From: Methylorubrum populi
GTDB taxonomy: Bacteria > Pseudomonadota > Alphaproteobacteria > Rhizobiales > Beijerinckiaceae
DNA: 64,000 nt
Reading direction: 5' to 3'
NCBI RefSeq assembly: GCF_002355515.1
Contig: NZ_AP014809.1
Location: forward strand, 4,798,501-4,862,500
Positions 47,645 to 64,000 of this stretch are shown here, one piece after another; within the stretch, counting starts at the first letter, position 1, and every line of letters starts with the position of its first letter. Position numbers and translations under genes: made by a program. The notes beneath the pieces are model-generated. The model ran no database searches. It was not told the DNA's origin and saw only the letters and a program-made list of their open reading frames with translations.

Positions 47645-48034
47645 ATGGCGAAGCCGGGGGACGACGACGAGCAGGCCATCGACCGCCTGACCCTGTACAT
47701 GCTCAAGGAGACCTATTGCGCGGCCGCGGGCGCCCTGAGGCGGATGAATCCGTCGGCGGCCGAGGCGCTGTTCCAGGCCTTCGAGCGGCAGATCGCCGAC
47801 GCGCTCCAGCGCATGCACGCCCACCGCTCGGAAGGGCCGGATTCGACCGCCATCGCCCTGGCGGTCGGTGACCGTATCGCCGAGATCCTCGATCAGGCCC
47901 ACCGCCGCCAGTTCGAGCCCGCGGTCGCGCCGGGGCCTGAGGATCGCAGCCTCAAGGCCGTGCGGGAGGCGGGCATCTCCAGCGAGGCAGTCGAGATCCT
48001 GGCAGACCTCCAGCGCCGCTTCCCCGCGTCCTGA
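47645..48034 (+). CDS. Hypothetical helical protein
   Basis: 129 residues from ATG 47645, preceded by GAGGACAGAGGA. It is mainly helical: DEQAIDRLTLYMLKETYCAAAGALRRMN, then EALFQAFERQIADALQRMHAH, then EAVEILADLQRRFP. The protein is acidic and soluble. No domain is recognised; it could be a regulatory or phasin-like helical protein. It converges with the MFS transporter gene. Confidence 0.7.
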   Translation: MAKPGDDDEQAIDRLTLYMLKETYCAAAGALRRMNPSAAEALFQAFERQIADALQRMHAHRSEGPDSTAIALAVGDRIAEILDQAHRRQFEPAVAPGPEDRSLKAVREAGISSEAVEILADLQRRFPAS

Positions 48035-48145
48035 GCCTCTCGCCCGTCGTCCGCACGACCTTGCGGACACCGACGACCGAGCGAGAGATGCGGCGGTGGA
48101 CACCCGGCTCCGTCGCCGCCGGAGCGGCGACGGAGGGGATTGCTG

Positions 48146-49447
48146 CTACTCCGCCGGCACCGCCCGCGGCGTCAGGGGCGTGGGCTCGTCCTCGAACGGA
48201 CGCTCGGGATGCATGGTGAAGGCGAGGCCGGCGCCGAGCAGCAGCAGGCCGATCGAGCCCGCGAACGGCAGGATCCAGTTGCCGGTGAGGTCCACGATCA
48301 GGCCGAAGGTGAGCGGCGAGACGATCGCCGCGAAGGCCGAGCCGAAATTCATCAGCCCGCTCGCCGTGCCGGCATATTGGGGCGCGATGTCCATCGGCAC
48401 CGACCAGATCGGGCCGATCACCAGTTCGAGGAAGAAGAACCCGCCGCTGAGCAGCAGCGCCACCAGGGTCAGTTCCTTGGTGAAGAACACGCCGGCGAGG
48501 CAGGCGGCGGCGCCCAGCATGCCGAGGCAGATCACGTTGCGGCGCGCCTTCTGCAGGTCGCCGGTCTTCTTCAGGATGCGGTCGGAGACCACACCGCCCA
48601 AAGTGTCGCCGACGACGCCCGCGAAGAACACGCCCGAGGCGAACAGGGCCGAGTTCTTGATGTCGAGGCCGTAGCCGTCCTTGAAGAACGAGGGCAGCCA
48701 GTTGAGGTAGAGCCACAGCGACCAGCCGTAGCAGAAATAGGTCAGCGTGACGGGGGCCATGCGCGGTACGAGCCGGCGCCACGGCACGGGGGGCTTGGCC
48801 ACGGGCTTGGCCGTGCGGTCGCGGATCGCCAGCCGCTCCAGATCCTCGCCGGTGATGCCCTTATGCTCGCGCGGATCGTCGCGGTAGTAGAACGCCCAGA
48901 CCAGCACCCAGGCGAAGCTGACGATGCCGAGGACGACGAAGGCGCCGCGCCAGCCGACATAGGCCATCATCAGGACGACGAGCGGCGGCGTCACCGCGTT
49001 GCCGAAACGGGCGAACGAGTGGGTGATGCCCTGCGCGAAGCCGCGCTGGTCCTTGGCCACCCAGGACTGCATGGCGCGCGTCGCGGTGGGGAAGGTCGCG
49101 CCCTCGCCGAAGCCCAGCGCGAAGCGGGCGAGGAACAGCGAGACCACACCGCCGACGAAGCCGGTCGCCACCGTCGCCGCCGCCCAGATCAGGCCGCAGA
49201 TGAGCAGGGTGCGCCGCGCCCCCCACTTGTCGGCCATGGCGCCGCCGATGATCTGGAACACCGCGTAGGGGTAGGCGAAGGCCGAGAAGACGAGGCCGAG
49301 TTCGGTGTTGCTGAGGCCGAGTTCGCCCTTGATCGCCGGGCCGGCGGTGCCGACGTTGACCCGGTCGACATAGGTGATGAAGTACATCAGGCAGAGCAGG
49401 AACAGCACCATGCCCGGCGCCGTCACGCGGCGTGGGATCGTGATCAT
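48146..49447 (-). CDS. MFS transporter, anion:cation symporter (ACS) family
   Basis: A 433-residue, 12-helix major-facilitator protein. The opening FLLCLMYFITYVDRVNVGTAGPAI and the loop motif GGAMADKWGARR identify the ACS family, which imports organic anions such as glucarate, galactonate or phthalate. It follows the aminotransferase by 89 nt in the same direction. It may bring in the acid that the neighbouring aminotransferase, isomerase and oxidase process. The actual substrate is unknown. Confidence 0.9.
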   Translation of the reverse strand: MITIPRRVTAPGMVLFLLCLMYFITYVDRVNVGTAGPAIKGELGLSNTELGLVFSAFAYPYAVFQIIGGAMADKWGARRTLLICGLIWAAATVATGFVGGVVSLFLARFALGFGEGATFPTATRAMQSWVAKDQRGFAQGITHSFARFGNAVTPPLVVLMMAYVGWRGAFVVLGIVSFAWVLVWAFYYRDDPREHKGITGEDLERLAIRDRTAKPVAKPPVPWRRLVPRMAPVTLTYFCYGWSLWLYLNWLPSFFKDGYGLDIKNSALFASGVFFAGVVGDTLGGVVSDRILKKTGDLQKARRNVICLGMLGAAACLAGVFFTKELTLVALLLSGGFFFLELVIGPIWSVPMDIAPQYAGTASGLMNFGSAFAAIVSPLTFGLIVDLTGNWILPFAGSIGLLLLGAGLAFTMHPERPFEDEPTPLTPRAVPAE

Positions 49448-49536
49448 CGGGGTTTCCTCTGGATTTTTGGGCTATCGCCCCGGGCCCCGCATCTGATGCG
49501 CGGCTTGGCCCGGGGCGTCGGCGTCTTGGAAACGGA

Positions 49537-50712
49537 TCAGCCGTCGAGGCCGGAGCGCAGGCTCGCCATGGCGGCGAGCACGCCGCCGCGCTGGTGCGGC
49601 ACGCCGGCCGCCGCCAGCCCCATCTCGACGCCGGACAGGGCGCCCATCAGGGTCAGGTCGTTGGTCTCGCCGAGATGGCCGATGCGGAAGATCTTGTCGG
49701 AGAGCTTCGACAGCCCGGCGCCGAGCGACATGTCGAACTTCTCGAGCACCAGGGCGCGGAAGGCGTCCGCGCCCTTGCCCTCGGGCATCATCACTGCGGT
49801 GAGCACCGGCGAGTACTCGTCCGGGTTCCGGCACAGCACTTCGAGTCCCCAGGCCTCGACCGCGGCGCGGGTCGCGGCGGCGAGCCGCTGGTGGCGGGCG
49901 AAGACGTTGTCGAGCCCCTCCTCCAGCATCATCGCCACCGCCTCGCGCAGGCCGTAGAGCAGGTTGGTGGCGGGCGTGTAGGGGAAGTAGCCGTTGGCGT
50001 TGGGCTTCAGCATCTCCTCCCAGTCCCAGTAGGAGCGGGGAAGGTTGTTGGACCGGCCCGCCGCCCGCGCCTTGTCCGAGATCGCGGTGAAGCCGAGGCC
50101 CGGCGGCAGCATCAGCCCCTTCTGCGAGCCGCTGACGGTGACGTCGACGCCCCACTCGTCGTGGCGGTAATCGACCGAGCCGAGCGAGGAGATGGTGTCG
50201 ACCAGAAGCAGGGCCGGGTGGCCGGCGGCATCGATCGCCTCGCGGATCGCCGGGATGCGGCTCGTCACGCCGGTGGAGGTCTCGTTGTGGACCACCATCA
50301 CCGCCTTGAAGGTGTGGCCGCGATCCTCCGCGAGCTTGGCCTCGACCTGGGCCGGATCGACGCCGTGGCGCCAGTCGCCGGGCACGAACTCGACCTCGAT
50401 GCCCCAGCGCGCCGCCATCTGCCGCCACAGGGTGGCGAAGTGGCCGGTCTCGAACATCAGCACTCGGTCGCCGGAGGAGAGCGTGTTGACGATCGTCGCC
50501 TCCCAGGCCCCCGTGCCCGAGCCCGGATAGATCACCACCGGACCCTTGGTGCGGAAGATGGTGCGGCAGCCCTCGAGCACCTCGCGTCCGAGCGCGCCGA
50601 ATTCCGGCCCGCGGTGGTCGATCACCTGCCGGTCCATGGCGCGCAGCACACGCTCGGGCACCGGGCTCGGCCCCGGGATGTGCAGGAAGTGTCGTCCGGT
50701 GCGGCTCGTCAT
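49537..50712 (-). CDS. Class V aminotransferase (serine/alanine-glyoxylate type)
   Basis: 391 residues, fold type I PLP enzyme. The start is ATG 50710-50712 with GGAGG 5 nt upstream. LHIPGPSPVPERVLRAM is the family entry, GSGTGAWEA binds PLP phosphate, and the catalytic Lys lies in VSGSQKGLMLPPGL. IFRIGHLGETNDLTLMGAL is the C-terminal arginine-containing motif. Homologues interconvert serine, alanine or ureidoglycine with glyoxylate to hydroxypyruvate or pyruvate. It is not beside serine-cycle genes, so it is probably a second, catabolic paralogue. It diverges from gntR across a 152-nt gap that contains a candidate operator. Confidence 0.92.
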   Translation of the reverse strand: MTSRTGRHFLHIPGPSPVPERVLRAMDRQVIDHRGPEFGALGREVLEGCRTIFRTKGPVVIYPGSGTGAWEATIVNTLSSGDRVLMFETGHFATLWRQMAARWGIEVEFVPGDWRHGVDPAQVEAKLAEDRGHTFKAVMVVHNETSTGVTSRIPAIREAIDAAGHPALLLVDTISSLGSVDYRHDEWGVDVTVSGSQKGLMLPPGLGFTAISDKARAAGRSNNLPRSYWDWEEMLKPNANGYFPYTPATNLLYGLREAVAMMLEEGLDNVFARHQRLAAATRAAVEAWGLEVLCRNPDEYSPVLTAVMMPEGKGADAFRALVLEKFDMSLGAGLSKLSDKIFRIGHLGETNDLTLMGALSGVEMGLAAAGVPHQRGGVLAAMASLRSGLDG

Positions 50713-50779
50713 GGTTCCTCCCGTTCGGCCGGATGCCGGGCGTTTCACGCTGCGCCCGATCGTTTCATCCCGCCAGATT

Positions 50780-50787
50780 TGCATTCA
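50780..50787. promoter_or_regulatory. Candidate GntR operator, site A
   Basis: TGCATTCA lies in the AT-rich stretch between the divergent aminotransferase and gntR genes, 68 nt and 78 nt from their starts. It matches, in inverse orientation, the TGAATGCA at 51690 and, with one change, the TGAATTCA at 56587. Confidence 0.5.
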
Positions 50788-50864
50788 TTTTTGATTGAGA
50801 CAAGAAGTATCATGCCTTCAATCATCCCATCGACGGCGATCGAGCCCGCTGCTACCAATCCGTC

Positions 50865-51668
50865 ATGACCTCCGCCACGATTCCCGCCGTGATACACGCC
50901 GAAGGCGAATCGGGGGGCGCGGACCGTCCGATCCCCCTCCCCGCCGGGCGTTCGGCCGGATCGCCCGCCAAACCCCGGGAAAACCTCGTGCATTCCCTTC
51001 ACGACGAGGTGTTGGCACGACTGCGCGACTTCATCGTCGAGGGCAATCTGGCGCCCGGCGCCCGGGTGCCCGAGCGCCTCCTGTGCGAGCGCTTCGGCAT
51101 CTCGCGCACCCCCCTGCGCGAGGCCCTGAAGGTGCTGGCCTCGGAGGGGCTGATAGACCTGCTGCCGAACCGCGGCGCCCGGGTCCGCCGGATCGGTGAG
51201 CGGGAGATCGTCGAGCTGTTCGACGTGATGGGCGGGTTGGAGTCCCTGGCCGGTCGGCTCGCCTGCGAGCGCATCTCGAGCGAGGCCTATGCCGAGATCG
51301 AACGGCTCCACCACGACATGTACGGCCACTACCTGCGGCGCGACCTGCACGGCTACTTCACCTGCAACCAGGCGATCCACGACCGCATCGTGCAGGCGGC
51401 CGACAACGCGGCCCTGAGCGCCGCCTACGCGAGCTTCGCGGGGCGCCTGCGGCGGGCGCGCTACTCGGCCAATCTCGACGCCAACCGGGACCGCTGGGGC
51501 GAGGCGATGCGCGAGCATGAGGAGATCCTCGACGCCCTGCGCCGCCGGGCCGGGGCGGAACTCAGCGACATCCTGTTCCGCCACCTGCGCAACAAGCGGA
51601 AGGCCGCCGCCGATCGCGAGGCCGCGGCGCCGGCCCTCGGCGAGATCGTCGTCGGCGAGAGTGCCTGA
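50865..51668 (+). CDS. GntR-family (FadR/FCD) transcription regulator
   Basis: 267 residues. The winged HTH is VLARLRDFIVEGNLAPGARVPERLLCERFGISRTPLREALKVLASEGLI (about 50-100) and the FCD effector domain follows, with HDMYGHYLRRDL...NQAIHDRIV and the metal-binding His pattern. The N-terminal 40 residues are unstructured. It sits between the divergent aminotransferase and the hydroxypyruvate isomerase (54 nt downstream) and is the likely local repressor. Its ligand is probably a small carboxylic acid. Confidence 0.93.
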   Translation: MTSATIPAVIHAEGESGGADRPIPLPAGRSAGSPAKPRENLVHSLHDEVLARLRDFIVEGNLAPGARVPERLLCERFGISRTPLREALKVLASEGLIDLLPNRGARVRRIGEREIVELFDVMGGLESLAGRLACERISSEAYAEIERLHHDMYGHYLRRDLHGYFTCNQAIHDRIVQAADNAALSAAYASFAGRLRRARYSANLDANRDRWGEAMREHEEILDALRRRAGAELSDILFRHLRNKRKAAADREAAAPALGEIVVGESA

Positions 51669-51689
51669 CGCCCGCATCTCCATCATTTT

Positions 51690-51697
51690 TGAATGCA
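51690..51697. promoter_or_regulatory. Candidate GntR operator, site B
   Basis: CATTTTTGAATGCAT lies 26 nt upstream of the chosen start of hydroxypyruvate isomerase, in a T-rich patch unlike its surroundings. Core TGAATGCA. An alternative ATG at 51693 lies inside this site, a reason to prefer the ATG at 51723. Confidence 0.5.
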
Positions 51698-51722
51698 TCT
51701 TGCGCGACCGAACGGCTCGTTT

Positions 51723-52499
51723 ATGCCCCGCTTCGCTGCCAATCTGAGCCTTCTGTTCATGGAGGTGCCGCTGCTCGATCGGTTCGCGGCGGCCCGCGCC
51801 GCCGGGTTCGCGGCGGTGGAGATGCAGTTTCCCTATGCCGAGGCGAAGGCGGCGCTGGCCGCGCGCCTCACCGAGACCGGCCTGCCGCTGGTGCTGCACA
51901 ACCTGCCCCCCGGCGACTGGGCCGCGGGCGAGCGCGGCATCGCCGCCCTGCCCGGCCGTGAGGCCGAATTCCGCGACGGGGTGGCGCGGGCGATCGACTA
52001 TGCCGGGGCGCTCGGATGCCGGCAGCTCAACTGCCTCGCCGGCCTCGCGCCGCCGGAGGTCGAGCCGGCCCGCCTTCGCGCGACGCTCACCGAGAATCTC
52101 GCCTACGCCGCCGATGCGCTGGGCCGTGCGGGCATCCGCCTGTTGATCGAGCCGATCAACGACCGCGACATGCCGGGCTTCGTCCTGAACCGCCTCGCGG
52201 ACTCGGCGGCGGTGATCGAGGCGGTGGGGTCCGACAACCTGTTCATCCAGGCCGATCTCTACCACATGGCGACAATGGGCGAGGACCTTGCGGGGAGCCT
52301 CGAAGGCCATCGCGCCCGCATCGCCCATGTCCAGATTGCCGACGCCCCCGGCCGCCACGAGCCCGGCACCGGCCGCATCGATTTCTCCGCCGCCTTCGCG
52401 ACCCTCGACCGCCTCGGCTACGACGGGTTCATCGGCTGCGAATACCTGCCCGCCTCCGGCACCGCGGCGGGGCTCGGCTGGATGACGGCCTATCGCTGA
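51723..52499 (+). CDS. hyi: Hydroxypyruvate isomerase family TIM-barrel protein
   Basis: 258 residues of the AP-endonuclease-2/xylose-isomerase-like barrel: MPRFAANLSLLFMEVPLLDRFAAARAAGF is the Hyi entry. Metal-binding Glu in VEMQFP, LLIEPIN and ADLYHM, His in IAHVQIADAPGRHEPGTG, and GCEY follow. Hyi converts hydroxypyruvate to tartronate semialdehyde; related proteins isomerise other 2-keto sugar acids. It follows gntR and stands in the same putative regulon as the aminotransferase. Confidence 0.9.
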   Translation: MPRFAANLSLLFMEVPLLDRFAAARAAGFAAVEMQFPYAEAKAALAARLTETGLPLVLHNLPPGDWAAGERGIAALPGREAEFRDGVARAIDYAGALGCRQLNCLAGLAPPEVEPARLRATLTENLAYAADALGRAGIRLLIEPINDRDMPGFVLNRLADSAAVIEAVGSDNLFIQADLYHMATMGEDLAGSLEGHRARIAHVQIADAPGRHEPGTGRIDFSAAFATLDRLGYDGFIGCEYLPASGTAAGLGWMTAYR

Positions 52500-52510
52500 A
52501 GATTGTGTGA

Positions 52511-52612
52511 TCCCAAAGGGATCATCCCTTCGGCGGGGCGCCGGGGCAGAGCCCCGGCTTGTCTCCAGGGCTCTGCCCTGGACCCGCGAAAGGACTCGTC
52601 CTTTCGAAACCT
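52511..52612. repeat. Dispersed hairpin repeat, second copy
   Basis: Consecutive hairpins, including CCGGGGCAGAGCCCCGG, CCAGGGCTCTGCCCTGG and GAAAGGACTCGTCCTTTC. The block GGGTCCAGGGC...GAAAGG matches 21526-21576 in inverse orientation. It lies between the converging isomerase and SDR genes and may also terminate both. Confidence 0.8.
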
Positions 52613-52616
52613 GCGA

Positions 52617-53489
52617 TCAGAAGATCGGCATGCCGCCGGCGACGGTGATCAGCGCGCCGGAGGTGTAGCTGCTCTCTTCCGCTGCCAGCATGACGTAGGC
52701 CGAGGCGAGCTCGGCCGGCTGGCCGGGGCGGTTGAACGGCACCTGGCTGCCGAAGGTCTTCACCGCATCCTCGCTCATCCCGGCGGGGATGAACGGGGTC
52801 CAGATCGGGCCCGGCAGCACGCCGTTCACGCGGATGCCGGTCTCGGCGAGCAGCTGCGCGAGGCCGAGCACCATGTTGCTGAGCGCCCCCTTGGTGGCGC
52901 TGTAGGCGAACAGGGTCGGCACCGGGTGCTTGGAATTGACCGAGGAGGTGAAGATCACCGAGGCGCCGGGCTTGAGATGCGCCAGCGCCGCCTTGGTGGC
53001 GTAGAACGGGCCGAAGATGTTGGTCCGGAAGTGCTTTTCGAACACGTCGTCGTCGATGTCCGCGACCCCCTGGTTCGGCTGCTGGAAGGCGGCGTTGTTC
53101 ACCAGGATGTCGAGCCGGCCGAACTCCTTCGCCGTGCGCTCGACGATTTCGCGGGCATAGGCCGGGTCCTTGATGTCGCCGGGAAGCAGCAGGGCGCGCC
53201 GGCCCGCCTTCTCGATCCAGTTGCCGACCGTCTCCGCATCCTTCTGCTCGTCGGGCAGGTAGGCGATCGCCACGTCGGCGCCCTCGCGGGCATAGGCGAT
53301 CGCCACCGCCCTCCCGATGCCGCTGTCGCCGCCCGTCACAAGGGCGGCCTTGCCCGTGAGGTTGCCGGAGCCCTTGTAGCTCTCCTCGCCGTGGTCGGGC
53401 TCGGGCGCCATCTGAGCCGTCTTGCCGGGGAAGCTCTGGGGCTGCGTCTCGAAGGGCGGGCGCGGGTACTTCGTCAGCGGATCGGTCAT
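52617..53489 (-). CDS. Short-chain dehydrogenase (general-stress GSP39/YhdF type)
   Basis: 290 residues. Extended N-terminus (PLTKYPRPPFETQPQSFPGK), then the NADP motif TGGDSGIGRAVA, NNAAFQQP, and the active-site Ser and YSATK. The long N-terminus and the P(F)-x-Q motif are typical of the stress-induced YhdF/YghA group. AAAAGGAGC precedes ATG 53487-53489. A candidate EcfG-type promoter lies upstream. Confidence 0.92.
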   Translation of the reverse strand: MTDPLTKYPRPPFETQPQSFPGKTAQMAPEPDHGEESYKGSGNLTGKAALVTGGDSGIGRAVAIAYAREGADVAIAYLPDEQKDAETVGNWIEKAGRRALLLPGDIKDPAYAREIVERTAKEFGRLDILVNNAAFQQPNQGVADIDDDVFEKHFRTNIFGPFYATKAALAHLKPGASVIFTSSVNSKHPVPTLFAYSATKGALSNMVLGLAQLLAETGIRVNGVLPGPIWTPFIPAGMSEDAVKTFGSQVPFNRPGQPAELASAYVMLAAEESSYTSGALITVAGGMPIF

Positions 53490-53517
53490 CACGGCTCCTT
53501 TTGGGGATTGCCGCGAC

Positions 53518-53542
53518 AACCGCAGGCGAGGGCCGCCGTTCC
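53518..53542 (-). promoter_or_regulatory. Candidate EcfG (general stress) promoter of the SDR gene
   Basis: On the minus strand GGAAC (53542-53538) is followed after 16 nt by GGTT (53521-53518). This is close to the GGAAC-N16-17-CGTT consensus of the alphaproteobacterial PhyR/EcfG stress regulon. It stands 29 nt upstream of the ATG. One position of the -10 box differs. Confidence 0.4.
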
Positions 53543-53564
53543 GAAGGGCGACGCCGGGCCGCGC

Positions 53565-56537
53565 TCAGCGCCCCGGCGTCAGGGCCGCGTCGAGCACGCG
53601 GGCGACGTGGATCGCGTCGCGGCCGAGGCCGTCGTGGATCTGGTGGCGGCAACTCGTGCCGTCAGCCACCACGAGGTCGTCGGCGGAGGCCTTGCGCAAG
53701 GCCGGGAACAGCGACAGCTCGGCCATGGCGAAGGAGACGTCGATCGTGTCCCGGCCGTAGCCGAAGGCGCCAGCCATGCCGCAGCAGCTCGATTCAATGA
53801 CCCGCACATCGAGCCCCGGCACCGCGCGCAGCACCGTCTCCACCGACCCCATCGCCCCGAACGACTTCTGGTGGCAATGGCCGTGCAGATGGGCGACCCG
53901 GCCGCCCTGGTCGGCGAGCGGAAGCGTGATCCGGCCGGCCGCGAGGTCGGCGGCAAGAAGTTCTTCGAAGAGGAAAGCCTTGCTCGCGAGCTCGTCCGCC
54001 TCCTCGCGCGGCAGCAACGACAGGAACTCGTCGCGGAAGGTGAGGAGGCAGGAGGGCTCGAGGCCGACCACCCGGGCGCCGGCCCGCACGAAGGGCAGGA
54101 GCGTGTCCAGCGTCCGCCGGGCCTCCTCCCGCGCCCGGTCGGTCTGGCCGGAGGCGAGATAGGTGCGGCCGCAGCAGAGCGGACGGCGGCCCTTGTGGGC
54201 GACGACGCGGTGCAGGCGATAGCCGGCGGCCCGCAGCACCCGCTCGGCGGCTTCCAGATTCTCGCGCTCGAAGGCGCGGTTGAAGGTGTCGCCGAACAGG
54301 ATGAGGTCGCGGAAATCGCCCATCACGTCCTCCGGATGGGCGACCTCGCCGCTCTCGCGCCAGGGCCGGCGCCATTCCGGCAGGGAGCGGCGGGCGGAGA
54401 AGCCGGCCCATTGCTCGCCGAACCGGGCGAGCGCCGGATAGCGGTTGCGCAGGTTCAGCAGCGGCGCCAGCGCCGCGGCCACGCCGGCATAGCGCGGCAT
54501 CTCGGCCACCAGCCGCTCCTTGAGCGGCAGGCCGTGCCGGGCGTGGTAGTGGTGCAGGAACTCGACCTTCATCTTGGCCATGTCGACGCCGGTCGGGCAT
54601 TCCCGGCGGCAGGCCTTGCACGACACGCACAGGTCCATCGTGCGCTTCATCTCGGGGCTCGTGAAGGCATCCTTGCCGAGCTGACCCGAGATCGCCAGCC
54701 GCAGGGAGTTGGCGCGGCCGCGGGTGAGGTGCTGCTCGTCCTTGGTGGCGCGGTAGGAGGGGCACATGGCGCCGCCTGCGAGCTTCCGGCAGGTGCCGTT
54801 GTTGTTGCACATCTCGACCGCCGGGCCGAAGCCGCCCCAATCCGACCAGTCCAGCGCGGTCTTCACCGGGGCGCTCACCGCGTAGTCGGGCGCGAAGCGC
54901 ATCAGGGTGCGGTCGTCCATCTTCAGCGGGCGGACGATCTTGTTGGGGTTCAGGCGGTTCTCGGGGTCGAAGCCGTCCTTCACCGTCTCGAAGGCGCGGG
55001 TGAGTTTTGCGCCGAACAGCGGCTCCACGAATTCGGAGCGCGAGATGCCGTCGCCGTGCTCGCCCGAGTATGAGCCCTTGTGGCGGCGCACCAGCTCCGC
55101 GGTCTCCTCGGCGATGGCGCGCATCTTCCGGACGTCGCCGCCCTTCTTCATGTCGAGGATCGGGCGCACGTGCAGGCAACCGACGGAGGCGTGGGCATAC
55201 CACGTGCCGCGGGTGCCGTGCCGCGTGAACACCTCGGTGACCGCGTCGGTGTAGTCGGCCAGATGGTCGAGGGGGACGGCGCAATCCTCGATGAAGGAGA
55301 CCGGTTTGGCGTCCCCCTTCATCGACATCATGATGTTGAGGCAGGCCTCGCGCACCTCCCACACCGCCTTCTGGCGGTTGGGCTCCACCACCTCGACCAC
55401 CGCGTCGGGAAAGCCGTGATCGGCCATGCACTGGTCGAGGCGCTTCAGGTCTTGCTTGAGCGCGGCGAGGTCGTCGCCGGCGAACTCGGCCAGCAGCAGG
55501 CAGTTCGGCTGGCCCCGGGTGATGTCGGCCAGCGTCGTGCGGAACAGCGGGATGTCGGCGCCGAGCACGAGTACGTTGTTGTCGACGAGTTCGACCGCCA
55601 CGGGGTCGAGAGCCACGATGTGGCGCGTGGTCTCCATCGCCGCGCGGAACGAGGGGAAGTGGCACACGCCCATGACGCGGTGGGCCGGCAGGCGCGAGAG
55701 CTTCAGCGTCACCGTGGTGGTGGCGGCAAGCGTCCCCTCCGAACCGACGAGGAGATGGGCGAGGTTCGGCCGCGGCTCGACCAGGGAGTCGAGGTTGTAG
55801 CCGCCGACCCGCCGCTGCACCCGCGGGTACATCCTCTCGATCTCGTCGCGGTTCTCGGCGGCGAGCGCCAGCATGCGCCGGGCGAGGTCGTCCGCCCGCG
55901 CCCCACCCGTCACCGCGCTCGCCTCGTTGCCGGTCAGCCCGAAGCCGAAGGCGGCGCCGTCGTGGAACAGCGCCTCCATGGCCAGCACGTTGTCGCTCAT
56001 CTTGCCGTAGCGCAGCGAGCGGGCGCCGCAGGAATTGTTGCCGGCCATGCCGCCGATGGTGCAGCGGGTGGCGGTCGAGGGCTCGACGGGGAAGAACCAG
56101 CCGTCCGCCCTCAGCCGGGCGTTGAGGCGCTCCAGCACGTGTCCGGGCTCGACGGTGACGGTGCCGCCCTCCGCGTCGTAGGCGACGACGCCGTTGAAGT
56201 GGCGCGAGCAATCGACCACGAGGCCGGCGCCGATCGGCTGGCCGTTCTGCGAGGTGCCGCCGCCGCGCATGATCACGGGCAGGTCGAACTGGGCCGCCAC
56301 CCTCAGGGTCGCGGCGATGTCGGCGGCGCTCCTGGGAAACACCACGCCCGCCGGCATGATCTGGTAGATCGAGGCGTCGGTCGCGTATCGCCCGCGGGTG
56401 AAGGTGTCGAAGCGGGCCTCGCCCTCTAGGACCTCGGCGAGCTTGCGCGGCAGCCCGGCATCGTTGCGGGCCTTCGCCCGCGCGGTCGGAGCCGGTGCCT
56501 CGGCCGGTTTCGCGCTCGCGCCCGGATTCGCGCTCAA
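53565..56537 (-). CDS. FAD-linked oxidase / Fe-S oxidoreductase fusion (GlcD+GlcF-like, YdiJ type)
   Basis: A 990-residue fusion. The N-terminal half is a VAO-type flavoprotein: PVIMRGGGTSQNGQPIGAGLVVD and LVGSEGTLA bind FAD. The C-terminal half has two ferredoxin-like clusters (MCNNNGTCRK...MCPSYR and LCVSCKACRRECPTG) and the CCG domains (PLCCGRTYL, SSCCGMAGAFGY). Such proteins oxidise 2-hydroxy acids (glycolate, D-lactate, D-2-hydroxyglutarate) to 2-keto acids and pass electrons to quinone or cytochrome. TTG 56535-56537 is the start: GGGAGG lies 6 nt upstream. A TGAATTCA motif stands 50 nt before it, linking it to the GntR regulon. Confidence 0.93.
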   Translation of the reverse strand: MSANPGASAKPAEAPAPTARAKARNDAGLPRKLAEVLEGEARFDTFTRGRYATDASIYQIMPAGVVFPRSAADIAATLRVAAQFDLPVIMRGGGTSQNGQPIGAGLVVDCSRHFNGVVAYDAEGGTVTVEPGHVLERLNARLRADGWFFPVEPSTATRCTIGGMAGNNSCGARSLRYGKMSDNVLAMEALFHDGAAFGFGLTGNEASAVTGGARADDLARRMLALAAENRDEIERMYPRVQRRVGGYNLDSLVEPRPNLAHLLVGSEGTLAATTTVTLKLSRLPAHRVMGVCHFPSFRAAMETTRHIVALDPVAVELVDNNVLVLGADIPLFRTTLADITRGQPNCLLLAEFAGDDLAALKQDLKRLDQCMADHGFPDAVVEVVEPNRQKAVWEVREACLNIMMSMKGDAKPVSFIEDCAVPLDHLADYTDAVTEVFTRHGTRGTWYAHASVGCLHVRPILDMKKGGDVRKMRAIAEETAELVRRHKGSYSGEHGDGISRSEFVEPLFGAKLTRAFETVKDGFDPENRLNPNKIVRPLKMDDRTLMRFAPDYAVSAPVKTALDWSDWGGFGPAVEMCNNNGTCRKLAGGAMCPSYRATKDEQHLTRGRANSLRLAISGQLGKDAFTSPEMKRTMDLCVSCKACRRECPTGVDMAKMKVEFLHHYHARHGLPLKERLVAEMPRYAGVAAALAPLLNLRNRYPALARFGEQWAGFSARRSLPEWRRPWRESGEVAHPEDVMGDFRDLILFGDTFNRAFERENLEAAERVLRAAGYRLHRVVAHKGRRPLCCGRTYLASGQTDRAREEARRTLDTLLPFVRAGARVVGLEPSCLLTFRDEFLSLLPREEADELASKAFLFEELLAADLAAGRITLPLADQGGRVAHLHGHCHQKSFGAMGSVETVLRAVPGLDVRVIESSCCGMAGAFGYGRDTIDVSFAMAELSLFPALRKASADDLVVADGTSCRHQIHDGLGRDAIHVARVLDAALTPGR

Positions 56538-56586
56538 GTGGAACCTCCCTCCCCGCGCCGCACCCTGGACAGGCGTTCGGCTTTTT

Positions 56587-56594
56587 TGAATTCA
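56587..56594. promoter_or_regulatory. Candidate GntR operator, site C
   Basis: TTTTTTGAATTCATAATTC lies 50 nt upstream of the FAD/Fe-S oxidase start in an AT-rich island. Core TGAATTCA is a perfect palindrome and differs from site B by one base. Confidence 0.45.
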
Positions 56595-56783
56595 TAATTC
56601 GCGCGAAGGGGCGGGTCAAACGCGGCAGCGTCGCGGGGCGCATCACGTGATCTGGAATGTAAAGCGATCTGCAATGACCCTGTCGCGGCGCGGCTTCCAC
56701 GCGTCGTGCCGGCCGGGTCACACGACGAAGCGGCCGCCGAGGGGATCGGTGGCCGCTCGGCTGTATAGATGGAACCGGAGGGT

Positions 56784-58169
56784 CTACAGCGCGATCCGCT
56801 GCGGGATCGTCTCCTGAGGGCCGTGCCGCTCGGCCAGGACGGGAACGGGCTCGGGCAGCAGGATCGGCCGCTTGGGCAGGGCGCGCGGCGGCTGGAGGGT
56901 GGGGCCGTCGCGCAGGAGGATCGGGTGCGGCTCCGGCGCCGGCACCACCGGAGCCGGCCGCGGCGTGGCGGGCCGCAGCTGGCTGCGCTCCATGAAGTCC
57001 CGCATCAGCGGCACGATGTCGGCGCGGAAGCGCGAGCCGTTGAAGATGCCGTAATGCCCGGCGCCCGGCTGCATGTGGTAGCTCTTGGCCGCCTCGGGCA
57101 AATTGACGGCGAGATCGAGCGCGGCTCTCGTCTGGCCGAGGCCGGTGATGTCGTCCTTCTCGCCCTCCACCGCCATCAGATGGCAGCGGCGGATCGCGCC
57201 GAGATCGACCGGCTCGCCGCGATGGCGCAGGGTGCCGCGGGGCAGGTCGTGACCGATGAAGACCCGCTCGATCGTCTCGAGGTAGAATTCGGCGGTGAGG
57301 TCCATCACCGCGAGATACTCGTCGTAGAAGGCCCGGTGGCGGGCGGCCGAGTCGCCGTCGCCGCGCACGAGATGGTCGAACATCGCGTGGTGGGCGTCCC
57401 GGTGCCGCTCAAGGTTCATCCCCATGAAGCCGGCAAGCTGCAGGAAGCCCGGATAGACCGCGCGTCCCGCGCCTGGATAGCCGGGCGGCACGGTGTGGAT
57501 GCAGTGCCGCTCGAACCAGGCGAAGCCCTTCTCCTGGGCGAGAACGTTGACGGCGGTGGGCGAGCGGCGGGTATCGACCGGCCCGCCCATCAGCACGGCC
57601 GAGCGCGGCACGAGCGGGTGATCCTCCGCCTCCATCCGGGCGATGGCGGCGAGCACCGGCACCGAGGGCTGGCACACGGCCGCGACGTGCAGGTCCGGCC
57701 CCAGCGCCGCGAACAGGTCGATGCAGGTGTCGATGTAGTCGTCGAGCCCGAACCGGCCGGCGCGCGCCGGCACCTGGCGGGCATCGGTCCAATCGGTGAT
57801 GAAGACCTGATGGCTGTCGAGGAAGGCCTCGACCGTGCCGCGCAGCAGCGTGGCGTAATGGCCCGACATCGGCGCGACGATCAGGAGCTTCGGCTTGGCG
57901 TCCAGCGCCGCGGAGGGCTCGCCGAAGGCGATCACGCGGCAGAAGGGGCGCTCCCAGACGATCCGCTCGCTCACGCCGAGCCCGAAGGCGGGCTTGGCAT
58001 AGACGCGGGTGGCGCGCTCGAACATCTCGCAGCCGGCGGCCACGGTGCGGCTGTGGGGGGCGTAGGCGAGAGGATTGAACGGGTTCTCGCAGGCAAGCCG
58101 GGTGGCTTCCGCCGCCAGGCGCATCGGTGCGAGCATGAGATGGCCAGCCTCATAAAGAGGGTACAGCAT
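56784..58169 (-). CDS. phaZ: Intracellular poly-3-hydroxybutyrate depolymerase
   Basis: 461 residues of the PhaZ intracellular depolymerase family, which mobilises stored PHB. The opening MLYPLYEAGHLMLAPMRLAAE is the family signature. The nucleophile is expected in the stretch VCQPSVPVLAAIA (a Cys in place of Ser in this group), and the GHYGIFNGSRFR box near residue 390 carries the His. The C-terminal 70 residues are Pro-rich and variable. The start is ATG 58167-58169. Confidence 0.93.
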   Translation of the reverse strand: MLYPLYEAGHLMLAPMRLAAEATRLACENPFNPLAYAPHSRTVAAGCEMFERATRVYAKPAFGLGVSERIVWERPFCRVIAFGEPSAALDAKPKLLIVAPMSGHYATLLRGTVEAFLDSHQVFITDWTDARQVPARAGRFGLDDYIDTCIDLFAALGPDLHVAAVCQPSVPVLAAIARMEAEDHPLVPRSAVLMGGPVDTRRSPTAVNVLAQEKGFAWFERHCIHTVPPGYPGAGRAVYPGFLQLAGFMGMNLERHRDAHHAMFDHLVRGDGDSAARHRAFYDEYLAVMDLTAEFYLETIERVFIGHDLPRGTLRHRGEPVDLGAIRRCHLMAVEGEKDDITGLGQTRAALDLAVNLPEAAKSYHMQPGAGHYGIFNGSRFRADIVPLMRDFMERSQLRPATPRPAPVVPAPEPHPILLRDGPTLQPPRALPKRPILLPEPVPVLAERHGPQETIPQRIAL

Positions 58170-58704
58170 GCGAGCGCTTCCCTGGAGCAGCTCGCTTGAC
58201 CCAAGCTGTCCTTTTCTTGCGTTGGTGGAAGGTGCAACTCGCGGGCCCGAGAAAAGGTTTCGTTTGTACAAGATCCCCCTGTTGATGGCGCCGCCCGAGC
58301 TTGAGGATGGACTGGCAAAAAACGGAAGAGCCCGCCGCCCTCGATTGCCTTGAGCCGTGAGGGTCATCGCGGGCGCACACGCGACATTCACTCGACATTG
58401 CGCGTTACGTGACATTGCGAGTTGCGCGAGGGTGACAGGCGGAACAGGCGGCCCGCATCATCGCGGACCGACTTGTCTAACGGGGCCGACGGCTTTTGCC
58501 GCGAAAGCGCGGTTTCAAACCGCTCCCGGTCGATGGGTTCGGTTCGATCCCTGCAGCCGTCCTTCCGGGGTGCCGAAGGCGGACCCGGAATCCACGATGA
58601 CCCCTGACGTGGCCGTGTTTCCCGCATCCCGGGTGGAATTCGGGGACCGCTCCGCGGCCCGGGATGACGGGCCGCGGCCCCGACGCGATCGCGCGGAAGT
58701 CGTT
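58170..58704. other. Intergenic region with repeat copy 2
   Basis: 535 nt without a gene. The left part holds the phaZ promoter region (AT-rich patch around 58240-58290). The right part, 58579-58671, is the inverted second copy of the repeat at 9633-9744, sharing GGGAAACACGGCC and GTCATCCCGGG in reverse complement. Confidence 0.6.
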
Positions 58705-60138
58705 TCAGGTGTTGGCCTGGGTGATGAACTTCGTCACGAGATACGCCTCGATCGCCTCCGCGCCGCCCTCGCTGCCGTAGCCGGAATCCTTGACGCCGCC
58801 GAAGGGCGTCTCGGGGAGTGCGATGCCGTGATGGTTGATCGAGATCATGCCGGACTCGACCCCCTCGCCCACTCGGTTCGCCCGGGTGGCCGAGCGCGTG
58901 TAGGCGTAGGCCGCGAGCCCGTAGGGCAGACGATTGGCCTCAGCGAACGCCTCCTCGTCCGCCGCGAAGCGCCGGATCGCCGCGATCGGCCCGAACGGCT
59001 CCTCGTTCATGATGCGCGCATCGAGCGGTACGTCGGCGAAGACGGTGGGCTCGAAGAAATGGCCGCGGTTACCGATGCGGCTGCCGCCGGTGAGGAGCCG
59101 TGCCCCCTTCGCCTCGGCATCGGCCACGAAGGCTTCCATCGCCTCGACCCGGCGGCCGTGGACGAGGGGACCCATCTGCGTCGCGGGATCGAGACCGTCG
59201 CCGACCTTGAGCGCCTTCGAGGCCGCGACGAACCCGTCGACGAAGCGGTCGTACACCCGGTCTTGCACGAGGAAACGGGTCGGGGCGACGCAGACCTGCC
59301 CGGCATTGCGGTACTTGTTGGCGGCGAGCACCCGCACCGCTGTGTCGACATCGGCATCGTCGAACACGATCGCCGGGGCGTGGCCGCCGAGTTCCATCGT
59401 CGCCCGCTTCATGTGCTGGCCGGCGAGCGCCGCGAGTTGCTTGCCGATTGCGGTCGAGCCGGTGAAGGTGATCTTGCGGATCACCGGGTGCGGGATGAGG
59501 TAGCCGGAGATCTCGGCCGGATCGCCGTAGACCAGGGCGAGCGCGTCGCCCGGCACGCCGGCGTCGAGGAAGGCGCGCACCAGTTCGGCGCAGGAGGCCG
59601 GGGTGTCCTCGGGCCCCTTGAGGATGACCGGGCAGCCGGTGCAGAGCGCCGCCGAGAGTTTGCGCACCGCCTGATTGATCGGGAAGTTCCACGGCGTGAA
59701 GGCCGCCACCGGCCCGACCGGCTCGCGGGTGACGATCTGGAGCACGCCCTCGGCGCGGGCCGGGATGACCCGGCCGTAGGCGCGGCGCCCCTCTTCCGCG
59801 AACCACTCGATGATGTCGGCGGCGACGCCGGTCTCGATGCGCGACTCGGCCAGCGGCTTGCCCTGTTCGAGGGTCATGGTGCGGGCGATCGCCTCCGCGC
59901 GCTCGCGCATCAGGGCGGCTGCCCGGCGCAGCACCTTGGACCGATCGAAGGCGGAGACCTTTCGCCACGCGGCGAAACCGCGCTCGACCGCCTCCAGCGC
60001 CTCATCGAGATCGGCCCGCCCGGCGACCGCGACCCGCCCGACCGGTTCACCCGTGGCCGGGTTGAGGATGGACAGGGTCTCGCCGCCGCTGCCGGAGCGC
60101 CACCGGCCGGCGATGTGAAGCGAAACGTCGAGGTCCAT
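58705..60138 (-). CDS. gabD: Succinate-semialdehyde dehydrogenase-type aldehyde dehydrogenase
   Basis: A 477-residue ALDH: cofactor-binding [10 protein letters not shown] and GSTAIGK, the general base Glu in MELGGHAP, and the catalytic Cys in [11 protein letters not shown]. The C-terminal [10 protein letters not shown] and [15 protein letters not shown] follow. The QVCVAPTR and [12 protein letters not shown] patterns are those of the GabD/SSADH group. It oxidises succinate semialdehyde (or a related aldehyde) to the acid. ATG 60136-60138. It is the last normal-composition gene before the AT-rich island. Confidence 0.9.
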
Positions 60139-60340
60139 GAGCCATCTCCGCGGAAGGGACGGCCCTCATATAGGCGCTGCGCGCTCGTTGCGGCACGGTC
60201 GGCGGCGATCCGATCGCGCCGTCAGCCGCGGGCTGGACGGCACCGACCGCGCCTACGATGCAACTGCGCTTCCAGACCTTCAGGCCGGCGCCGCTCTGTG
60301 TGAAATCGTTGTGTGAAACGGGGTCGATCACCGACCGCCG
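60139..60340. other. Boundary between host-like DNA and the AT-rich island
   Basis: Composition changes from about 70% G+C to clearly AT-richer sequence within this stretch, near 60300. A short direct repeat TGTGTGAAA occurs at 60297-60305 and 60310-60318. There is no integrase gene, tRNA or clear attachment site in view. Confidence 0.5.
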
Positions 60341-60384
60341 AAAAGCACCAACTCTTTGCTCCGAAACAGGAAAGAGTTTGGTGC
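60341..60384 (-). terminator. Rho-independent terminator of the RT/ncRNA transcript
   Basis: On the minus strand GCACCAAACTCTTT and AAAGAGTTGGTGC pair (one bulged base), with a 13-nt loop, and run into TTTTCGG. It lies 403 nt downstream of the second reverse transcriptase stop, marking the probable 3' end of a transcript that continues well beyond the coding sequence. Confidence 0.75.
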
Positions 60385-60786
60385 GGCCAAGAGGACTCGA
60401 AACATCATTTTACTGTTGTTTCGAAGCTAAAGACGACCTAATTGACCGTACTGTGCGAGAGTTTGGTGCATCCGTCAACCGAACCTAACGCATCGTCCTT
60501 TGGAGAATCCGTAGCAACAGTTTTCTGACGGTGAAGCGAGCTTCGGGCCAGTCCTGAGAGACCGTTTCAAGCCGTCCGGATCAACATAGTTTTTCGCTGA
60601 CAACGAACCATCAACGGCCGACGTCGATCTTGGTAACGATGAAACCTAGATGGGCGGGACCGCCAGAGCGATGTGTGTGTGCCAATCGCTCGCGCGGGAA
60701 GCGCAAATTCATGAGCCCAGAACTAAAAGCTCTGTAACTTCCATCCTAGGACGAAAGTGCTTCACCCCAGCAGTCCCACCACTCTC
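60385..60786 (-). ncRNA. Candidate DRT3-associated non-coding RNA
   Basis: About 400 nt between the second RT gene and a terminator, with no credible ORF in either direction. In transcript sense it contains a hairpin with an alternating CA loop (60666-60691) and an 8-bp hairpin TCGAAACA/TGTTTCGA (60397-60424). The sequence GCACCAAACTCT occurs at 60470-60459 and again in the terminator stem. An ncRNA carrying an AC-repeat template is a known part of DRT3 systems. Exact 5' and 3' ends are unknown, and the assignment is inference from position, the template-like loop and the terminator. Confidence 0.65.
60666..60691 (-). other. Hairpin displaying an AC-repeat loop (putative RT template)
   Basis: Stem GAGCGAU / AUCGCUC (7 bp, perfect) closes a 12-nt loop UGGCACACACAC in transcript sense. 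The alternating run of ten bases spans 60672-60681. This is the only such dinucleotide run in the island. Confidence 0.75.
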
Positions 60787-62715
60787 CTATCGCCATGCGT
60801 ACACGGGACGCAACTCTTTTCTTCTCAGAAGGTGTTTAACGCTGATGCCTGACCAATCAACGAAACCGAGGCGGTCCGAGACATCTTCGAAGCACGACTT
60901 GGAAAGTTCGCCAGGCGCGCAGAGTTTAAATAACACCATTCTTTCTTTGATATCGATTTTTTTGTCGGATATGTAGTCGCAAAACATTAGAAATGATTGA
61001 GATTCCGAAAATACGGCGTCGGGCCGCGCTAAAATGCGCTCTTTAACCTCTTGTTCCAATTGTTTGATTTCATCATGGAACAAAGTATCATTTCTCAAAT
61101 AGCAGAACTTAGCAGTTATATAAGAGAAGTATGACAAGTTCGGAGCACGTATGATGCTTTTAAGCGTATCTTGTACATGCTTTGAGTTGAGAAACTCCTC
61201 TCCCACAAAATACGATCCGCAGATTAGTAGATTAAATATCTCAATATTGTCAACGCTTCCCAAATGATCTCCCAGTTTCGAGCGCAGCGTTCGTACAATA
61301 GAAGTTATTTCTTCCATCATCACATGTCGAATAGTATCAGCTTGTTCCTCCGGCATCTTATCAAAAGTGGAGCTGACAGAGAGTACAATCTGACATATAG
61401 AGTATGTTGTGCGAACTCTAGCGTCCATAGCGCAGATGTAAAACGCAACATCGAGTAGCATTGCGACAACATCGCACAGAGCGGTTTGATTTTCGACGAA
61501 ATCAGGATTTTCTATAAGCTTCACAGCATGCAAAATCGCACGCCTGATGACGGACATAATCCATCCGCTAACATTCGAAAATGAAATTTCATGCTTCGCA
61601 ACGATGATGCGAATGCTTTTAGATTGAGACCGTATAAATCTAACAGTATCTGGAGCGACTTCCGATGTTTTCTCAATGTCAGATAGTCGACCTTGTATAC
61701 TGCGAAGTATTGGACCTAATTCATTGCGAGCGAGTGTGATTGCGGATACAAAAGGCCTCTCGCTATCGACCACTTTCCTTTCATTAATGAAGAGTTTATA
61801 GGATTCAAGGTGCTTTTTGACAGCAGCTTCAACTTTGCTCAATATAAATTTGTCGTTTGCAAAGATAGCATAGTCATCGACATACCGACGAAGATCGTAG
61901 TCCGTACCAGCAAAGATTTTGTCTTGCTTCAATTCGGTTTCAACTCTGCTGTCGACGTCCTGCAATATAATCTCTGCAAATATGCGCGAGAACTCTGGAC
62001 CTACAACAATGCCATTCGTTTCGTTGTAGTTGCAAATCTGCATCAGCTTATCAAATTCATTCTCAAAGCTATAGTAGTTCCTGTTGTCTTTGGCAAAAGA
62101 CTTGTCTTTGACTGCCCAGCTTAGAGAATGTGTGTATATGTTGTAGAAGCATTTAGACACGTCGGCCGAGCGATGAAATCTGAACTTTGATTCAAGCCGG
62201 ATGAACTCTCTTGAATCCATAAACTTTCCGAGCAGATTGTACTTTCCATATACAAAGAATGACGACAAATGTCCGACGTCGGGCTGTCCGTCTTCTCTAA
62301 GCGCCTCTACAAGCCCTAATTTGAGCCCTTCGTCCGCTTCAGCAGTGACTACAGCGCCGTAGGGAGATGCAACGTCAGTTGGCCGACGAAGCGAAAATCG
62401 GCTGTTCGCACAGTAGTTCAATAAGCTATTAGCATGAATTGTGTAGAATTCTGCGACTGCCATTTGAGCAAGAGGATGCACAATAGACAAAGTTGTGGTT
62501 CGAGAGCTGTCTTTCGAAATCGTATAACTATAAGGTATTGTGAATGCCGTGCTTGGCTTGACAACTTTCAAGTATGCCTTCTCCACATCTGCGCTCATAG
62601 GTGCGCAGAGGCCAAGATGAAATTTATCGTTCGAGAATATTACTGGAACTTCGTATGGCAATGTATCGGTTAATAGCGCGCGATACTTGACCGACGCGTG
62701 CTTATCATTTCGCAT
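60787..62715 (-). CDS. drt3b: Reverse transcriptase, DRT3b/UG8-like
   Basis: A 642-residue RT of the UG/Abi type. Palm motifs: A in ADVSKCFYNIYTHSLSW (184-200), B in NGIVVGPEFSRIFAEII (234-250), C in LRRYVDDYAIF with YVDD at 278-281. The YTHS after motif A and the GPEFSR motif are typical of Abi-like RTs. About 350 residues after the palm are predicted helical, without a nuclease or other enzyme motif, as in AbiK-type proteins. ATG 62713-62715 overlaps the first RT gene by 11 nt. Low-G+C codons differ from the flanking genes. Naming as the UG8 partner is from length and context; a phylogeny would settle it. Confidence 0.8.
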   Translation of the reverse strand: MRNDKHASVKYRALLTDTLPYEVPVIFSNDKFHLGLCAPMSADVEKAYLKVVKPSTAFTIPYSYTISKDSSRTTTLSIVHPLAQMAVAEFYTIHANSLLNYCANSRFSLRRPTDVASPYGAVVTAEADEGLKLGLVEALREDGQPDVGHLSSFFVYGKYNLLGKFMDSREFIRLESKFRFHRSADVSKCFYNIYTHSLSWAVKDKSFAKDNRNYYSFENEFDKLMQICNYNETNGIVVGPEFSRIFAEIILQDVDSRVETELKQDKIFAGTDYDLRRYVDDYAIFANDKFILSKVEAAVKKHLESYKLFINERKVVDSERPFVSAITLARNELGPILRSIQGRLSDIEKTSEVAPDTVRFIRSQSKSIRIIVAKHEISFSNVSGWIMSVIRRAILHAVKLIENPDFVENQTALCDVVAMLLDVAFYICAMDARVRTTYSICQIVLSVSSTFDKMPEEQADTIRHVMMEEITSIVRTLRSKLGDHLGSVDNIEIFNLLICGSYFVGEEFLNSKHVQDTLKSIIRAPNLSYFSYITAKFCYLRNDTLFHDEIKQLEQEVKERILARPDAVFSESQSFLMFCDYISDKKIDIKERMVLFKLCAPGELSKSCFEDVSDRLGFVDWSGISVKHLLRRKELRPVYAWR

Positions 62716-63973
62716 TTTGCCACACCGATTTTATTGATCTAAGCCTATCGTAACGTATTTTGATGGACATCCGGCTTGAAAATCCGTGAGGGAAACTCAC
62801 TTTGCGCAACCGTTCCATCTGCTGATGATTCAGATTTTGTAAGAGATATCGCCGAAACCGATGCCTTTTGTTTCTGATCAAATTGTGATAAAATAAGTTT
62901 ACTAAAGTCAATTCAGGCGGGGTTTGTTCTTCAGAACCGTCACAGGTGTGAATTCCGCAGTGTCTATAACTATAGTAGATTCCAGAAAGGAAGAAGTCAT
63001 TGCTTGCGACATAGCTGTTACCAACTCGCCTAAGCCGATAGTTTCCGCTTAAAAATTCCATTCTCTCGCAGAGTAAATTGCCATTCCCAGTTTTGACGAA
63101 TTCATTAAGGGCAAGTACTATACGTGTCTTCAGCTTAATAGTCTTTTTGTCCGACAAGGTAACTTCAACCTTGCGATGTTTGTTGCTGTCGCAGTAGTCC
63201 GATACAATGAACTTATATCCGAGGTACTCTATAGATTTTTTTGAAGTCGATTTCTTATCCTTATTAATAAGCGAGGTAGTTCCAAACTTTTCCGTATTGA
63301 AAGTCATCGGCTCGGGCAGAAGCTCACCAATTTTAATCTCTATCTGAGTTGGTTCAATAAAAGTAAAAATCAATATATCATCAGAATAGCGGAAGTACTT
63401 ATAGACGCCTTCAAGTCCGCGGACTTCCTTGTCAAAACGCTCCATCGCGAGCTCAACAATTGTTGAGCTGAGACCTACGCCGCGCGGAAGCCCGGCAGCT
63501 GCTCCATTGCAATGCGTTTCGAAAAAAGATCGAATATAGTGTCTTGTTGTCCTTGGGATCGCTGTGTCATATATAAGTCTTTTCCGAACTTCGTCGATAG
63601 GGATAGTTTCATAGAACGACTTTATGTCGCGCCGGATGATGTACATCGGCGTGGATTCTATCAGTGACTCGATCACCCCGTCGACGATAGACTCTCTACT
63701 CGGGTTTCTTATCCTAAAGCGGCTCGTTATATGCTTCGCAACTGCGCGAAGCAAGAGATTAGCATTGTAGTTATTATAACTTATGCACCTTCGCCCTTTA
63801 ATTTTTGACTTGACGAAAGATGTTAAATCAATCTCGCGGCAGGAAGCGCTTTCGGCTATTTCTGTGATAATAGCTTCTCGATCTTTTGCGAGATCAATTT
63901 TGAAGCGGGCTGAGTCACCTCTTCGTACTACGCGTTTAAGTGACTTGGCCGATAAGGCATTGCTTAGCGTCAT
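62705..63973 (-). CDS. drt3a: Reverse transcriptase, DRT3a/UG3-like
   Basis: A 422-residue RT. Motif A: IIRRDIKSFYETIP (DIKSFYE at 116-122). Motif B: GLPRGVGLSSTIVELAMERFD (161 onward). Motif C: YFRYSDDILIF with YSDD at 196-199. Motif D/E: IEYLGYKFIVS (248 onward). A C-terminal basic thumb-like region ends FSSRMSIKIRYDRLRSIKSVWQNAK. There is no maturase, CRISPR or retron feature. The start ATG 63971-63973 has GGCGAG upstream, only 27 nt from the window edge, so the promoter is outside. It is followed, overlapping by 11 nt, by the larger RT, an arrangement matching the two-RT DRT3 anti-phage system. Confidence 0.8.
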   Translation of the reverse strand: MTLSNALSAKSLKRVVRRGDSARFKIDLAKDREAIITEIAESASCREIDLTSFVKSKIKGRRCISYNNYNANLLLRAVAKHITSRFRIRNPSRESIVDGVIESLIESTPMYIIRRDIKSFYETIPIDEVRKRLIYDTAIPRTTRHYIRSFFETHCNGAAAGLPRGVGLSSTIVELAMERFDKEVRGLEGVYKYFRYSDDILIFTFIEPTQIEIKIGELLPEPMTFNTEKFGTTSLINKDKKSTSKKSIEYLGYKFIVSDYCDSNKHRKVEVTLSDKKTIKLKTRIVLALNEFVKTGNGNLLCERMEFLSGNYRLRRVGNSYVASNDFFLSGIYYSYRHCGIHTCDGSEEQTPPELTLVNLFYHNLIRNKRHRFRRYLLQNLNHQQMERLRKVSFPHGFSSRMSIKIRYDRLRSIKSVWQNAK

Positions 63974-64000
63974 TAGTATCTCGCCTCACGGCTGCGCCGC

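Follow-up and report, generated by a model that had tools for sequence, protein, structure and literature searches.

A predicted DRT3 system of Methylorubrum populi belongs to a lineage of Drt3b reverse transcriptases without Arg71

The DRT3 system of E. coli (EcoDRT3) combines two reverse transcriptases (RTs), Drt3a and Drt3b, with a non-coding RNA (ncRNA), encoded in the order drt3a-drt3b-ncRNA. In its Drt3b (PDB 26cz), the published example of this kind, the side chains of the polymerase itself dictate an alternating DNA sequence. According to the published account, the ncRNA carries a conserved ACACAC in a loop adjoining a stem, Arg71 of EcoDrt3b stacks on the incoming dA, both R71A and R71K lower synthesis, (CA)10 is detectable in cells from R71K only and not from R71A, the system becomes toxic when RecBCD is missing, and lambda Gam acts as its trigger (PMC13174585). 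Here we describe a related locus in 64,000 nt of Methylorubrum populi DNA (NZ_AP014809.1, positions 4,798,501 to 4,862,500; the whole stretch is hereafter called the window). By sequence and by analogy, we read it as an anti-phage DRT3 system with all its parts, located on an island of 6.8 kb at tRNA-Leu(GAG), which would work as the E. coli system does with a Drt3b in which Arg71 is replaced, and we give this reading a probability of roughly 85%. The DRT3 system itself is known; the lineage without Arg71 is new, and no mention of it or of DRT3 in Methylobacterium was found in the literature searched, with supplements and Deng et al. 2026 outside the search.

The two RT genes overlap by 11 nt on the minus strand (Table 1), and their products score 332.6 bits (Drt3a) and 571.9 bits (Drt3b) against the NCBIfam equivalogs NF041747 (cut-off 200) and NF041748 (cut-off 350), respectively. 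The best PADLOC models were likewise Drt3a (321.7 bits) and Drt3b (576 bits). By phmmer, the window Drt3a matches the Drt3a of PDB 9z6y (E 1.3e-32), and the window Drt3b was aligned to PDB 26cz and, by profile, to both 26cz and 9z6y. Because the best models are Drt3a and Drt3b and the equivalog scores lie far above their cut-offs, the pair is, as judged from sequence, the Drt3a and Drt3b of a complete DRT3 system. The catalytic motifs of both RTs are intact (YSDD and YVDD). A preliminary description of this DNA had recognized two overlapping minus-strand RT genes of different lengths with intact YxDD, had named them a UG3 and UG8 pair of DRT3 from a Methylobacterium-like host while asking whether both might fall outside these families, and had suggested that copies from methylotrophs may differ from the studied ones; the profile models bear out the pair and its identity, the Methylobacterium-like host holds good as well, and the suspected difference is found in Drt3b.

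Table 1. Positions of the DRT3 genes, the ncRNA and the features of the integration site in the window.
Feature	Position	Strand	Basis
drt3a: UG3 (Class 2) reverse transcriptase, 422 aa, YSDD	62705-63973	minus	NCBIfam, PADLOC, phmmer
drt3b: UG8 (Class 1) reverse transcriptase, 642 aa, YVDD at 278-281	60787-62715	minus	NCBIfam, PADLOC, PDB alignments
ncRNA core, 138 nt: 19-bp closing stem, internal hairpins, unpaired template	60648-60785	minus	fold
Closing stem, 5' and 3' strands	60780-60762 (5'), 60671-60653 (3')	minus	fold
RNA template CACACACACA, directly next to the closing stem (3' strand)	60672-60681	minus	sequence and fold
Element end, common to the island in genome G043	60402-60496	minus	local alignment
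Perfect 24-bp repeat of the tRNA-Leu(GAG) 3' end, resembling an attachment site	60378-60401	minus	repeat search
Terminator hairpin, chromosomal, originally of tRNA-Leu	60341-60384	minus	follows intact tRNA-Leu in G037

In the alignment, E22, R71, R241 and Y666 of E. coli Drt3b correspond to E22, T74, R244 and Y639 of the window protein. The dA gate (E22), the dC switch (R244) and the C-terminal priming Tyr (Y639) are all present, and in place of the Arg that stacks on dA there is Thr74; the window protein belongs to a separate lineage (see below). Arg71 is a functional residue of EcoDrt3b; databases do not use it as a criterion for the DRT3 family. The locus shares with EcoDRT3 the gene order, E22, R241, YVDD of Drt3b, the C-terminal priming Tyr and the AC template, but differs from it in Thr for Arg71, in YSDD rather than YVDD of Drt3a, in three residues rather than one past the priming Tyr, in a template of 10 nt and in an AddAB host. 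Identity to the E. coli-type locus L091 is 27% for Drt3a and 33% for Drt3b. Both proteins also align over most of their length with those of the DRT3 that forms a 6:6:6 complex (PDB 9z6y/9z6z), although in that Drt3b the R71 column is occupied by Arg and the Tyr is the last residue, and that Drt3a has YVDD. In contrast, the DRT3 of Methylobacterium sp. J-026 (L011) is of the same lineage as the window: it shares Thr at position 71, Y[A/S]DD in Drt3a, a 'YAW' tail and a similar serine resolvase beside drt3a, and its AC template is 9 nt. Its Drt3a and Drt3b are 48% and 54% identical to those of the window, and no tRNA was found beside it.

The AlphaFold2 model of the window Drt3b, from a 26-sequence alignment, has a mean predicted local distance difference test (pLDDT) of 85.1 and a predicted template modelling score of 0.86; residues 634-642, including the priming Tyr, have a pLDDT <50. 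The predicted fold is that of a Class 1 RT, nearest to DRT6, DRT4, AbiK and UG15, which share 15-17% identity with the sequence of the model. These four are single-RT systems.

To place the window Drt3b we used 112 collected Drt3b loci, which include at most 80 of the 462 confirmed genome relatives. The template and tree counts include the 104 with a usable frame and downstream DNA, the eight others being dropped for broken or cut frames; L114 lacks residue 71. Residues are given in E. coli numbering via L091, where R71, R241, Y276-VDD and Y666 stand at their published positions. The window Drt3b falls in the smaller of two lineages, comprising 20 of 111 Drt3b, in which residue 71 is Thr (14), Asn (5) or Leu (1), whereas it is Arg in 91/91 others. 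In the Drt3b tree (104 rows), Arg71 is lost once, on the branch leading to a 20-row clade (Shimodaira-Hasegawa-like approximate likelihood-ratio test, SH-aLRT, 99). The same 18 lineage members that are available separate in the Drt3a tree (105 rows; SH-aLRT 99), so that by sequence DRT3 is divided into two lineages by the same split in both trees. The members are Alpha- and Betaproteobacteria, apart from one without a class in its record title.

Several further traits follow this split. The x of YxDD in Drt3a is Ser or Ala in 17 of 18 lineage members and Val in 87/87 others, and Drt3b extends 2-4 residues past the priming Tyr in 18 of the 19 members with an intact end, compared with 0-2 in 84 others. 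The exception is L024, which sits on a long branch and whose Drt3b ends on the Tyr; the other row of zero length is L114. An aromatic residue at 188, beside the ribose-contacting Phe, is present in 20/20 members vs 14/91 others, and Arg at 69 in 11/20 vs 0/91 (Lys or Arg, 14/20 vs 14/91). Retained throughout or nearly so are E22 (19/20; Asp in L025), R241 (20/20), F187 and D182 (19/19 rows with Thr or Asn) and an AC run of 7-10 nt (19/20; L051, with a broken drt3b, has 4). The invariance of R241 is biased in L011-L122, since the genome and viral scans used a peptide pattern containing this residue; five new Drt3b found by hidden Markov model (HMM) alone (L167-L170, L187) also carry it, together with E22, R71 and the Tyr, and their AC runs measure 7-8 nt. 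The two lineages may have separated anciently with different solutions for the dA pocket, one based on Arg71 and the other on Thr/Asn71 with an aromatic residue at 188, often Arg69, Ala or Ser in YxDD of Drt3a and a longer tail; for this interpretation we consider the odds to be even.

A structured RNA starts directly downstream of the drt3b stop codon on the minus strand. Its fold energy is -76.6 kcal/mol, and the segment 60600-60786 has a z of -3.25, with 0/200 shuffles folding as well. The window contains the template CACACACACA a single time, and none of 100 shuffles contains it. An AC run of at least 6 nt lies within 300 nt downstream of drt3b in 99/104 loci, compared with 9.6% of dinucleotide shuffles and with 3-16 of the 104 loci for each of five other two-letter alternations, and the 10-nt run of the window is the longest of all 104. 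The position of the template against the stem is the arrangement described for EcoDRT3 (PMC13174585). No template other than AC was seen in the 104 loci, which come from several phyla; this speaks for a protein rule and an RNA rule that are tied to each other. We considered an alternative dinucleotide template in some DRT3 and rejected it, as the five loci without a 6-nt run still hold 5-nt AC runs. In L038, L043, L053, L073 and L083, the AC run downstream of a full-length Drt3b is about 4-5 nt; the 5-nt run of L038 sits elsewhere than in its relatives, at whose place there is only ACAC.

MAFFT alignment of the relatives' ncRNAs aligned the template alone, and the stem was tested instead by pairing 5' and 3' strands. 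We judged its conservation mainly by the length of the longest helix rather than by duplex energy. The longest closing helix formed by a locus's own strands averages 11.5 pairs over 84 loci, compared with 7.85 ± 0.16 and a maximum of 8.42 in 5000 random re-pairings of strands from different loci, and the 19 pairs of the window are equaled by 0/200 shuffles. The first test, by duplex energy, gave an own mean of -27.3 vs -19.46 ± 0.41 over 2000 re-pairings, with the own strand as best partner in only 14/89 loci. Template-constrained folds of 16 relatives contain closing stems in most. By these comparisons, what is conserved in the closing stem is its pairing rather than its sequence. No Rfam family reached its gathering score within 59000-64000.

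By analogy with E. coli, Drt3a would repeatedly copy the ACACAC template into poly(dTdG), while Drt3b, primed from the C-terminal Y639, would build poly(dCdA) without a nucleic-acid template, E22 acting as its dA gate and R244 as its dC switch. The two strands would anneal, and a host double-stranded DNA (dsDNA) exonuclease would hold the duplex low until phage interference with this exonuclease allowed it to accumulate and the infected cell to be stopped. The preliminary description had named alternating GT/AC DNA, an ACACAC template and one template-free RT, in agreement with two published accounts (PMC13174585; PMC13314766). The product of the window Drt3b is probably still poly(dCdA), because the template of its partner stays AC. 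Stacking on dA may be taken over by Arg72 (position 69) and/or the aromatic residue beside the ribose-contacting Phe; in the model (strand 73-78), exchanging Arg71 for Arg69/Thr71 would set the Arg on the same strand face, two residues off.

In this host, AddAB would act in place of RecBCD as the restraining nuclease. AddA (1120 bits) and AddB (966 bits) are both above cut-off in the host genome, and RecC has no match there, RecB and RecD not having been searched. The published RecBCD guard therefore cannot apply unchanged, and another dsDNA exonuclease, AddAB, should by inference guard here. A host without a RecC match is a naturally occurring case in which to test the nuclease-guard model.

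The loss of Arg71 might instead relax or alter dA selection, so that the product of Drt3b is not strictly (CA)n. The stacking role of R71 in E. coli and the lowered synthesis by R71A and R71K (PMC13174585) speak for such a changed preference, as does the distribution of Arg71, kept in 91/91 others and in 0/20 lineage members. However, E22 (or Asp), R241 and the AC template persist in the lineage, with runs of 7-10 nt in 19/20, and poly(dTdG) would be left without a partner strand; we therefore regard a changed preference as unlikely. The simplest reading of a lineage that retains the AC template and both gates is that it continues to make (CA)n, by a rebuilt pocket. Less likely again is that the mobile island is dying and its DRT3 copy is decaying or silent. 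The island integrase is indeed reduced to an N-terminal open reading frame (ORF) beside an IS630-like transposase, and Drt3b is above cut-off in only 2/111 congeneric genomes, but neither RT frame is truncated, the catalytic and priming residues are in place, and template and stem are preserved in the RNA. That two unrelated RTs (e.g. a retron, a group II intron or other UG types) stand together by chance beside an incidental AC run is barely credible: both proteins do match general RT models, but at far lower scores than the equivalogs, gene order and AC repeat are the same in relatives, and the Drt3a and Drt3b trees divide congruently.

Several observations weigh against a conserved RNA and a rebuilt pocket in a system working as in E. 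coli. Taken singly, the closing stem reaches p 0.05 or better in 42 of 84 loci and fails in 42, and with the own 3' strand shuffled the duplex energy reaches 5/100 or better in 49/97 loci (4/100 in the window). Ser or Glu occupies the place of the relocated Arg in 6 of 20 lineage members. Moreover, a single branch accounts for the changes in the lineage traits and, approximately, for those in YxDD of Drt3a and residue 71 of Drt3b; they are not independent evidence of co-adaptation, and one-branch differences near the pocket prove no cause. Finally, with R71A no (CA)10 is detectable in E. coli cells (PMC13174585), and T74 could accordingly stand for an enzyme that is weaker or different. A natural lineage without R71 but with both gates and the RNA template separates what the sequence needs from what activity needs. 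If (CA)n is still made, the pocket of an amino-acid-templated polymerase would have been rebuilt with its output unchanged; if not, the output of the second lineage would be a new sequence.

The locus lies on an AT-rich island, with a GC content of 0.415-0.459 in 1-kb windows of 60500-63999 vs 0.66-0.78 in those of 44000-60499. The partner copy of the 24-bp repeat (C1:4865681-4865704) and the intact tRNA-Leu(GAG) (C1:4865682-4865766) are outside the window. In the congeneric genome G037, a complete tRNA-Leu(GAG) runs directly into a closely similar hairpin and the same flank, which by this arrangement is an empty integration site. Repeat and empty site together identify the DRT3 island as a 6.8-kb element integrated at tRNA-Leu(GAG) and horizontally acquired, in line with the AT-rich island and the acquisition proposed in the preliminary description. 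The 400-nt non-coding tail with a terminator described there exists and holds the ncRNA, but its terminator and everything beyond ~60496 are part of the integration site at tRNA-Leu. Since in G037 the intact tRNA-Leu runs straight into nearly the same hairpin, the terminator is chromosomal and not part of DRT3. The stretch 60341-60786 is thus a composite of ncRNA, element end, tRNA 3'-end copy and chromosomal terminator, ending in a hairpin and TTTT; this hairpin was read from sequence and fold, and a simple terminator scan with strict loop and tail rules did not list it.

Between the repeats, the island (~6.8 kb) carries the integrase-N-terminal ORF (N-terminal match only; DUF6538 just above cut-off, SAM-like below), the IS630-like transposase (DDE_3), a response-regulator-like ORF (below cut-off), a serine resolvase and DRT3. 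The island of G043 has the same element end, but its cargo is PDC-M19 genes and, in the manner of CBASS, an oligonucleotide cyclase plus a 2TM effector (L163 2563-6729); its contig stops before any tRNA. Defence cargo thus appears to be exchanged at tRNA-Leu(GAG), which would make this tRNA a defence hotspot. The tRNA search covered 9 of 30 related loci, and the junction was read in L134 and L135. In G003 and G059, ~5 kb separate tRNA-Leu from the same flank. A serine resolvase adjoins drt3a in both Methylobacterium DRT3 loci (L002 12720-13289, L166 9741-10349; 68% DNA identity), and a further resolvase is present in the G043 island.

The second congeneric genome with Drt3b above cut-off is G088. 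By HMM search, Drt3b is above cut-off in 5/385 genomes of the class and 2/398 of the phylum, the window's genome being counted in each. Seven more congeneric genomes (e.g. G008, L125/L132) have RTs that match the Drt3b model at 24-112 bits, far below cut-off, and are probably other UG types. Five related loci (L061, L068, L086, L089 and L170) have YVDN for YVDD in the active site of Drt3b and keep the first Asp, the metal ligand named from the E. coli structure.

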